Shown: positions 29,941 to 46,587 of the stretch, one piece after another
Layout: every line of letters begins with the position of its first letter
How positions within the stretch are numbered: the stretch's first letter is position 1
Source of the DNA: Methanorbis furvi
GTDB taxonomy: Archaea > Halobacteriota > Methanomicrobia > Methanomicrobiales > Methanocorpusculaceae
Assembly: GCF_032714615.1 (NCBI RefSeq)
Contig: NZ_JAWDKA010000004.1
Location: 1-64,000, forward strand
Direction of reading: 5' to 3'
DNA: 64,000 bases
Position numbers and translations under genes: made by a program
The notes under the pieces: model-generated
Database searches by the model: none
What the model saw: only the letters and a program-made list of their open reading frames with translations
What the model was told of the DNA's origin: nothing

Positions 29941-30070
29941 TGCCGGACATTGTTTGCCAATAAACGAATTTATGGGCAAAGCCGATTTTTTCGCAAGAAA
30001 GAGAGACACAATAATTCAAGATCAGGATTCAGGATATTTTTATATAGAAACAGGTAAATTTTCATGTATT

Positions 30071-43579: not shown

Positions 43580-43695
43580 GATGATGTGTATTGCAGTAGC
43601 CGGTTATCTTTGTTCTGATATCACCAAAAATCAATATAGCATCATTTGGTTTATTCCATCTGCGTGCGAAGTACTTCGATTGAAAAAGTGGAGGG

Positions 43696-44613
43696 TTACT
43701 CTCCACCCGAGGCGAGTGGGAAGTAGTTCTGGTATGCTTTTCTGCGTTCGTCAAGGTCGGTGTGGATGTATATTTCGGTGGTCTGAATGGAGTTGTGGCC
43801 GAGGTTTTCCTGAACGACACGGAGGTTATGAGATCGTTTGTAGAGTTCGCTGGCGTAACTGTGCCGGATTTTGTGCGGCGTTATGCCTGCGGGAGCGTAG
43901 AGGTTGAAGATGTGCTGAACGGTGCGGGGAGAGATTGCAGCCCCGCGGTTGCCGAGAAATACCGGGCCTTCGATTCTTTCGCCCAGATGTTCTCTGATCA
44001 TTGCAAGGGTGTCAGGGTCGCAGAAGACGATTCTGATTTTGCCGCCCTTACCTCTGACGCGGATGGTCTGTTCGTCGAAGTTGATGTGTTCGGCACGAAG
44101 GCCGCAAAGTTCGGAGACACGCATGCCGGTTGCGTAGATGGTTCTGATTAAGAGTGCGTCGCGGGGATTTTCAAGGGAGGCGATGAAGGTCATGACTTCT
44201 TTATGCCGGAGATATTTGAGTTCGCGGTCTTTGATTTTGGGCCGTTCGACGCGATCCATGGGGTTTGCGTCAACGATGTTCTGGGAGATTAAGTGACGGT
44301 AGAAGGAGCTGAGGGCTGAGTCGTACTGGTGCAGGCTTGCCGGGCTGAGGTGGCGTTCGTTGCGGATGATGGTGAAAAAGTCGCTGATTTCGTAGGCGTC
44401 AGCGTCGATGTCAGCACCCATGCCGCTGTTCAAAAGTGCGGCGAGGTTTTCCGGGATTTCTCCGTCATGGTCGAGGAGGTAGGTTTTGTAACGGGCGAAG
44501 AGTTTGAGGACGCGACCGTAGGCTTCTATGGTATTCTCAGAGTAGTTTTTGGTTTCGATGCTGCTGAGGTAACGAGGTATCCAGATGCTGAAGGTTCGTT
44601 TTGGCGGGGCCAT
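43696..44613 (-). CDS. xerA: Tyrosine recombinase XerA
   Basis: 305 residues with all catalytic residues: Arg in ATGMRVSELCGL, Lys in RVRGKGGKIRIV, HKIRHSYASEL (His-x-x-Arg), His in VQENLGHNSIQTTEIY and the nucleophile Tyr in IYIHTD. The N-terminal half (YSENTIEAYGRVLKLFARY) is the SAM-like core-binding domain. Archaeal XerA resolves chromosome dimers at a dif site without a partner. The site at 44654-44681, about 40 bases before the start codon, is a candidate. A phage or integrated-element integrase is less likely because no element surrounds it. Confidence 0.9.
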   Translation of the reverse strand: MAPPKRTFSIWIPRYLSSIETKNYSENTIEAYGRVLKLFARYKTYLLDHDGEIPENLAALLNSGMGADIDADAYEISDFFTIIRNERHLSPASLHQYDSALSSFYRHLISQNIVDANPMDRVERPKIKDRELKYLRHKEVMTFIASLENPRDALLIRTIYATGMRVSELCGLRAEHINFDEQTIRVRGKGGKIRIVFCDPDTLAMIREHLGERIEGPVFLGNRGAAISPRTVQHIFNLYAPAGITPHKIRHSYASELYKRSHNLRVVQENLGHNSIQTTEIYIHTDLDERRKAYQNYFPLASGGE

Positions 44614-44653
44614 GATGCACTCAATCAGGTATTTGGTCTGTATGCAGATAATG

Positions 44654-44681
44654 TTTGCGCATAATAGACATTATGCGCAAT
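44654..44681. promoter_or_regulatory. dif-like site or operator next to xerA
   Basis: Two 11-bp arms, TTTGCGCATAA and TTATGCGCAAT, flank the 6-bp spacer TAGACA, the 11-6-11 layout of Xer recombination sites. The symmetrical core is TTGCGCATAAT / ATTATGCGCAA. It could also be a xerA operator because it lies in the promoter area. The stretch from 44700 to 45236 that follows holds no gene I can support. Confidence 0.55.
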
Positions 44682-45236
44682 ATTTCAGGGGTTTTTGAGG
44701 GTTTGAAACGACGACAAATTGGACGTTAAATGAAGAATTGGTCGTTTTTATTGGGTTTTTGGATTTTCGTTTCCGAGGTGATTTCAGTGCCCGGAAAATA
44801 TTCTGATGAGATCCTGCTGAGATGAAAAAACAGGGTTTTGAGGCTGACGTGATCAGATATGATGAATCACCTTGGCAGGAGAGTGAAGTGGGCTTGAATG
44901 CCGTTTATGAAGGCTGGATTTTTCGGGTGCCGGGGAAAAATTCGTATAGGTTTCTTCGATGACGGATATTGTGATGTTGAAGATAAAAAAATCTTGAGAG
45001 AGAAAATTGCTGTTGGGTAATTGGGTGCGGCGAAAATCATCAGAGCCGTGAAACTATTTCGTCATAATTTTTTCTGAGAGATACTGCGATTGAGGGCAGG
45101 TGGTAGAATGAAGATCTGATATGCCGAAATGAGATAGAAGTTACGCGGTGTGATTCAGGTACATGCGGTTGTGTGAAGTAAACACGAATTACACGAATCG
45201 CATGCCACTTCGCGGCCTGCTGGACTCTCACAAAAA

Positions 45237-45835
45237 GATTTAGTCCGTTATTTTTCTGAAAAATGTAAATGGGTTAGTGGTGAGTTGGCATGATGAGAAA
45301 AAGAAACCGCAAATCCACGCAAATGCGGCACGGCGCAGACGTGCTCAGCTAAGCGAGCCCAAAGGGCTTGCCGCTCTCGCCCTTCGGGCTCCGCAAATCG
45401 CATTTGCGAACCGTCGCTCTCCTTCCCGCCCAGAGCTGGGCGGGTGGAGCACCTAATCGGTGACGCGACTGCAAATGCTGGACGGCGCCTGTCGGGCGCC
45501 GCCATGGGTTGAATGGATCGCATCTGAAGTGTGGGACAATCTGAAAGTTTTCAACTCAATGACATTTCACGCAGTTATACACCATGAATATTATCGATAA
45601 ACAATAGGCGGCGCCCGACAGGCGCCGTCCAGCGTTTGCCGGAGCGGTTGCGATAGCAACGAGCCCGCCGGAATCCGGCGGGATGAGAGCGACGAAATAG
45701 CAAACGCGATTTGCGGAGCGAGCATCAGCGAGCGAGATTTGCGTGGATTTGCGGTTTCTTTTTCTCATCATGCCAACTCACCACTGACCCACTTACTTTT
45801 TTCAGAAAAAAAACGGACTAAATCTTTTCCACAGC
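45237..45835. repeat. Large inverted repeat with GC-rich inner palindromes
   Basis: Outer arms of about 80 bases (around 45237-45320 and 45745-45835) are inverted copies: GGTGAGTTGGCATGATGAGA on the left and TCTCATCATGCCAACTCACC on the right. The interior has GC-rich palindromes (CGGCGCCTGTCGGGCGCCG; its inverted copy near 45610; CCGCCCAGAGCTGGGCGG near 45427; CCGCCGGAATCCGGCGG near 45664). The arm ends resemble the flanks at 27.1 and 63.6 kb. No transposase is encoded. Confidence 0.82.
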
Positions 45836-46002
45836 ATCCCATATCACCTCCTAAAATATTCCAAAGAAACCAAAAACAAAAAACATCATCCACCAGACCA
45901 ACCTCACCCGCACATGAAATAAACCACATGATGCTATACAACATTTTCGCACAAAAATAACTCCCAAACCCTCAATACCAATCAACTCCCAATACACTCA
46001 CA

Positions 46003-46587
46003 ATGGACTCTGACCCGTACCCGACTATCCCTGATGAAGAAGACCGGACAGAAGAGATCAACAAATATCAGAAATTCAAAAAAGTTGACGGAGCCACCTA
46101 CCGCAAAGTCAACGTATTCCTTCGCAAACGCACCTACATCACCGCACGCGAATGGGCAATCGCCCGCCTCTGCTCAGACTTCAAAACACCCTACGGCGCA
46201 GAAATGACCTTCATCGGCCAGCACCTCCCCGAACTCGTCCCCTTCATGGAGGAACCCTACAGCCCGCAGGCAGTCAACCAGGCAAGAAACGCATTCAAAC
46301 GAAAGGTACGAAAATCCGGAGCAACCTTCTTCTATGGAGCCATGTGCGGATTCTTCACCCTCGACGAACTCGACGACATCCTCTTTGAATCCAGCGAGAT
46401 CGCCAGATTCCTGCTCGAGATCGAAGGAACCTCACTCTCCATCGACGACGAACTCGACATCGAAGACAAAATCACCGAGATCATGCGAAAACTCGGTGAG
46501 TCTGCAAACGTCCTCCTCAACAGCCGCAAAGGATCAACCGTCGACGAAGACGAAGACGATGATGATGACGACGACGATGAAGAATAA
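46003..46587 (+). CDS. DUF5806-like archaeal protein with acidic tail
   Basis: 194 residues, soluble. The central block YRKVNVFLRKRTYITAREWA, IARLCSDFKTPYGAEMTFIG, LPELVPFMEEPYSPQAVNQA and GATFFYGAMCGFFTLDELDD is strongly conserved between haloarchaea and Methanomicrobia. The C-terminus is a run of Asp and Glu. The function is unknown. A TATA-like sequence and a T-rich region separate it from the following mutase gene, and 62 bases lie between them. Confidence 0.75.
   Translation: MDSDPYPTIPDEEDRTEEINKYQKFKKVDGATYRKVNVFLRKRTYITAREWAIARLCSDFKTPYGAEMTFIGQHLPELVPFMEEPYSPQAVNQARNAFKRKVRKSGATFFYGAMCGFFTLDELDDILFESSEIARFLLEIEGTSLSIDDELDIEDKITEIMRKLGESANVLLNSRKGSTVDEDEDDDDDDDDEE

Follow-up and report, generated by a model that had tools for sequence, protein, structure and literature searches.

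A probable dif site adjoining xerA in Methanorbis furvi and other Methanomicrobiales, and the polar 21-bp motif that brackets it

A 28-bp palindrome encoded next to the gene for the tyrosine recombinase XerA of Methanorbis furvi is very probably the chromosomal dif site of this archaeal enzyme, as judged from comparative sequence data. It occupies positions 44654-44681 of the window (the whole stretch of DNA that was analysed, 64,000 nucleotides) and reads TTTGCGCATAA-TAGACA-TTATGCGCAAT. The site, its copy number, its conservation, the paired changes in its arms, its likeness to bacterial dif, and its linkage to xerA were all computed directly. The features of this locus are the following:

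44654..44664, plus strand: xerA-proximal dif arm TTTGCGCATAA, near-invariant in 21 congeners
44665..44670, plus strand: central 6-bp spacer TAGACA (TGTCTA on the xerA strand), with fixed T..A edges
44671..44681, plus strand: xerA-distal dif arm TTATGCGCAAT, recognised by congener conservation and arm covariation
43696..44613, minus strand: xerA, a 305-aa tyrosine recombinase, assigned by NF040815, the nearest solved chains, and Pfam Phage_integrase

The site and the recombinase gene

The 11-6-11 architecture claimed in the preliminary description was borne out, with arms at 44654-44664 and 44671-44681 and a spacer at 44665-44670. The outermost base pair of the 28-mer is mismatched, and a strict reading gives a perfect 11-4-11 palindrome (44655-44680), equivalent to this site in the customary 28-bp dif frame. 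The claim that an intact XerA gene lies beside it also held (43696-44613, 305 aa), and only the distance needed correction, from 41 bases to 40 bp between the site and the ATG at 44613 on the minus strand. The xerA product reaches 246.6 bits with the NCBIfam model NF040815 (recomb_XerA_Arch), above its cut-off of 220, and the solved chains nearest to it include the XerA proteins of Pyrococcus abyssi and Thermoplasma acidophilum. The catalytic half of XerA shows long runs of invariant columns across Methanomicrobiales.

When up to 3 mismatches are allowed, the window contains the 28-mer once (expected 0.00); it is also present once in the 1.85-Mb genome (26 contigs, ~96% complete), which agrees with the single copy expected in the preliminary description; it is also single-copy in nearly all relatives. 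At 3 mismatches the genome yielded further matches only to an unrelated palindrome family (TTGCCCATAAATTCGTTTATTGGCAA type), in five copies. This interspersed 26-bp element is found at 29954-29979 of the window and on C1, C4, and C10 of G000, and the nearest relative carries three copies of it. Since inverted repeats of this kind are common (a stretch of 3.9 kb contained two 11-6-11 repeats with no more than 1 mismatch), it is conservation, rather than the palindrome itself, that argues against a chance origin.

Conservation in Methanomicrobiales and the function of the site

By comparison with named relatives, the window genome was placed in Methanocorpusculum (Methanomicrobiales). In the 21 Methanocorpusculum loci checked, the arms hold 1.90 bits per column versus 0.73 and 0.67 in the flanks, the inner spacer bases hold 0.90 bits per column, and the spacer is always 6 bp long. 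All congeners whose assemblies cover xerA and the region 5' of it have the site, which is also found throughout the order. Neither multiple copies nor loss in relatives retaining XerA, the two outcomes that had been named beforehand as contrary to a dif site, were encountered. Nearly all of the 80 named Methanomicrobiales loci hold a dif-like 28-mer at a fixed position before xerA, with the gene-proximal arm nearly always intact and directly followed by a TATA-like stretch.

Changes in one arm are matched by changes in the other. Among 40 Methanomicrobiales sites, picked as distinct and well-formed (a choice that favours pairing, and so flatters the paired percentage and, to a lesser extent, the double changes), 34 double-change cells were counted versus 14.3 +/- 2.4 in shuffled data, a value that none of 500 shuffles equalled. 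The covariation was lost in every slid register of these sites. The paired arms include CATAA/TTATG together with CAGAA/TTCTG, TTGCGC/GCGCAA together with TTTCGC/GCGAAA, and TTGCGG/CCGCAA in Methanoculleus. This pattern is what a single protein binding both arms would select.

The inner four bases of the spacer are variable, and can be found in either orientation among sister species. Three well-supported sister pairs differ in the orientation of an otherwise identical spacer, while their arms are unchanged: TGTCTA/TAGACA, which distinguishes the window genome from G019, and TACATA/TATGTA, seen twice. These cases show that the direction of the spacer is independent of its flanks. Since hairpins are known to undergo small inversions by mutation, the flips need not reflect XerA activity. 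Opposite orientations among sister species were recorded at 44665-44670 of the window and in loci L003, L010, L011, L020, and L021.

The site also resembles bacterial dif. Compared with the dif sequence of Escherichia coli, GGTGCGCATAATGTATATTATGTTAAAT (PMC3025954), the 28-mer is identical at 21/28 positions, the best match on its 202-kb contig, and the site of a congener is identical at 22/28, the best in 1.2 Mb. Both elements share the TGCGCATAAT..ATTATG core and a 6-bp spacer. In contrast, the arms of E. coli dif differ from each other (one for XerC and one for XerD), whereas those of the window are near-perfect mirror images, as for one enzyme. Matches to the bacterial consensus have been reported at 14/28 positions for Pyrococcus sites and 18/28 for that of T. 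kodakaraensis (PMC2958812).

From these features, we infer that XerA binds and cuts this site, resolves chromosome dimers through it, and regulates its own gene. XerA monomers would occupy both arms of the 28-mer and cleave where these meet the 6-bp spacer, and recombination between the two copies of the site in a chromosome dimer would yield monomers, with xerA and dif acting as one linked module. XerA bound to the gene-proximal arm would probably repress xerA as well, because this arm abuts the xerA promoter.

It is unlikely that the palindrome is solely an operator of xerA, recognised by XerA or by another dimeric regulator, with the true dif located elsewhere. The location of the site directly before the TATA-like stretch at the start of xerA, which is found order-wide, would fit an operator, as would the better preservation of the proximal arm in many genomes. 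Several Methanoregulaceae, among others, have a degenerate distal arm (5/11 mismatches), and in loci L248 and L307 this arm is worse still and barely recognisable, so the element may act there more as a half-site operator. Methanocalculus bears on both readings, as its full, intact palindrome lies 0.6-1.3 kb upstream of xerA and a lone half-site remains at the promoter. This arrangement, which makes autoregulation of xerA likely, can be read as the separation of two functions: recombination would need a whole site anywhere, and the half-site would serve xerA control. An operator alone would not explain a complete palindrome at that distance. No Rfam family was found between dif and xerA in this genus. 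The likeness of the 28-mer to bacterial dif also speaks against a mere operator, as does the fact that the window genome holds no second site (up to 3 mismatches) besides the unrelated palindrome family. On the other side, three Methanoregulaceae own a second dif-like site, located between tRNA-Leu and trkH:

L143:5001, L144:5001, and L145:5001 (genomes G037, G052, and G057): second dif-like site, with a left flank conserved over ~50 bp, TCATATATGGCA...TATAA

This element may be another site for XerA or else a promoter, and it is a possible competing dif in that family.

Two other explanations are very improbable. The first is that the palindrome forms an RNA hairpin in the xerA leader (an attenuator or stability element). 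The fold is strong (z = -5.3, folded as single-stranded DNA) and the covariation of the arms would suit it, but the arms resemble dif and hardly vary in primary sequence, the site persists far from xerA in Methanocalculus, and its position ahead of the TATA-like box in relatives means that it is probably not transcribed with xerA. The second, just as hard to sustain, is that the palindrome serves an integrated element with a XerA-like integrase as its attachment site: a tyrosine recombinase next to its own site is the usual integrase layout, but this one keeps the same place throughout the order and belongs to the NCBIfam XerA family, not to an integrase family, and a search of 2.9 million viral contigs for both types of site returned no copy of either arm type. 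So far, no mobile relative with both the 28-mer and this gene has come to light.

Chromosomal position and comparison with known dif systems

A position near a skew switch, proposed in the preliminary description as a check, was found in one closed congener and not in a second one. In the former (G015, chromosome of 1805 kb), orc1 is at 0.6 kb and the site at 770 kb. The GC skew of this genome is too weak to place the terminus, and AT skew served instead: its cumulative curve forms a V whose best-fitting break falls at 805 kb (5-95% bootstrap range, 745-925 kb), 35 kb away from the site, and none of 2000 permutations fitted equally well (66% of the chromosome sampled). In the latter (G017), the site lies at 40% of the chromosome length, and the irregular, noisy skew has no clear switch at the site. 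The skew of the 202-kb contig of the window likewise lacks a clean switch. Elsewhere among the closed genomes, the distance from orc1 to the site or to xerA amounts to ~25-47% of the circle, except in the Methanomicrobiales outlier G058, in which the site is ~12% of the chromosome from the main orc1. Thermococcal dif sites are also off the antipode, at 122-142 degrees, not exactly opposite oriC (PMC2958812). With a clear switch in one genome and irregular profiles in others, a terminus position of the site is supported rather than proven.

The XerA/dif system of Thermococcales shares with the present one a 28-bp 11-6-11 site in one copy, the use of XerA alone, and a partial likeness to bacterial dif (PMC2958812). 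However, dif does not adjoin xerA in Thermococcales, whereas in the window they are 40 bp apart, and the conserved flanks of the thermococcal site are contiguous with dif, in contrast to the bracketing motif described below, located ~1 kb away (PMC2958812). The predicted dif sites of Sulfolobales are likewise close to xerA, although that order belongs to the Crenarchaeota, which are contrasted with the Euryarchaeota in the same study (PMC2958812); the present case is euryarchaeal.

Single recombinases genetically linked to their dif sites, as here, are known from the difSL/xerS system of streptococci and the difH/xerH system of epsilon-proteobacteria (PMC2731167). Linkage of this kind was found at 40 bp from xerA in the window, in a like manner at nearly all of the 80 loci, and at 0.6-1.3 kb in Methanocalculus. 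Contrary to the present case, those systems are bacterial and hold other recombinase families and site sequences (PMC2731167), and the arms of the window site are more similar to E. coli dif. Membership of the window recombinase in the XerS/XerH family was rejected, as its product scores above the XerA cut-off and gives 105 bits with the XerS model, below the cut-off of 267. The dif-xerA locus would work like a module of the difSL/xerS type without being a member of it. As far as could be found in the literature, a dif site linked to xerA had not been described before for Euryarchaeota.

A 21-bp polar motif and the DUF5806 gene

The comparison of loci brought to light a 21-bp motif, ATAAACCATATGATGCTATAT, which is an imperfect dyad. 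In the window, its two copies are ~1.0 and 1.2 kb from dif, and one of them precedes a highly conserved gene:

43634..43654, minus strand: motif copy ATAAACCAAATGATGCTATAT, beyond the 3' end of xerA
45919..45939, plus strand: motif copy ATAAACCACATGATGCTATAC, on the opposite side of dif
46003..46587, plus strand: DUF5806 gene (PF19122; Pfam 231.8 bits)

A non-coding element of ~600 bp (45233-45828) is inserted between dif and the right copy; its terminal inverted repeats, 92 bp long, are 96% complementary, and it contains internal hairpins.

In 41 related genomes searched with up to 2 mismatches, the motif was found only within 19 kb of dif (median 1.0 kb) wherever dif could be placed, and a reversed control pattern gave no match in the same genomes. 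All 63 placeable copies, from 36 genomes, point outward from dif, although these genomes are related and the copies are not 63 independent events. In 24 genomes the motif flanks dif on both sides. The plus copy of Methanocalculus is located between dif and xerA, which means that dif, and not xerA, is the element bracketed by the pair. Motif-like sequences in distant members of the phylum have no adjoining dif-like palindrome of the window type.

The DUF5806 gene is linked to the dif-xerA locus in most Methanomicrobiales, and one motif copy usually precedes it, on either side of the locus depending on the genus. In the sampled loci, 38 ORFs adjacent to the motif form a single family, DUF5806. 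This linkage suggests that DUF5806 belongs to the dif-xerA module, and the position of its gene makes the protein a candidate for binding the motif. The family is widespread in the phylum, and in the genomes examined from another family (f7) it shows neither an adjoining motif nor linkage to the dif locus, so a general link between DUF5806 and the motif is unsupported outside Methanomicrobiales. No NCBIfam model matched DUF5806 and no solved relative was found; its AlphaFold model is poor (mean pLDDT 59), and a fold search with it gave no significant match.

A role as a shared promoter or operator is possible for the motif, as both copies in the window are 54-63 bp before an ORF. However, conservation is limited to the 21 bp on the DUF5806 side and on the other side alike (1.74 and 1.66 bits inside, 0.1-0.2 outside), the genes past the second copy vary between genera, and the location of the Methanocalculus copy between dif and xerA also speaks against a promoter. 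A chromosome-wide word of the KOPS type was also considered, as the polarity switches at dif (63/63), and was rejected since the copies are few and local. Alternatively, the motif could act at the terminus, for instance as a fork barrier or as a binding site for a resolving factor, and a polar pair on either side of dif may be compared with a fork-trap layout like that of Tus/Ter. It is possible, although we put this forward only tentatively, that the pair is a terminus element and not a promoter. A protein bound to both outward-pointing copies would then keep fork arrest, looping, or a translocase within the 2-3 kb that surround dif, and Methanomicrobiales would possess a compact terminus module of the form motif-dif-xerA-motif. 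This pair is more surprising than dif itself, and is the least explained part of the locus; as far as found in the literature, a dif site bracketed by such motifs has not been described in archaea.

Sites of the dif type are known in few archaea, and those of Euryarchaeota have been described as unlinked to xerA. With an order-wide set of sites, anchored by alignment, chromosome dimer resolution becomes directly testable in methanogens. Archaea have no FtsK homologue (PMC8371274), and for the placement and timing of Xer recombination without it, the motif pair and the DUF5806 gene are concrete candidates.
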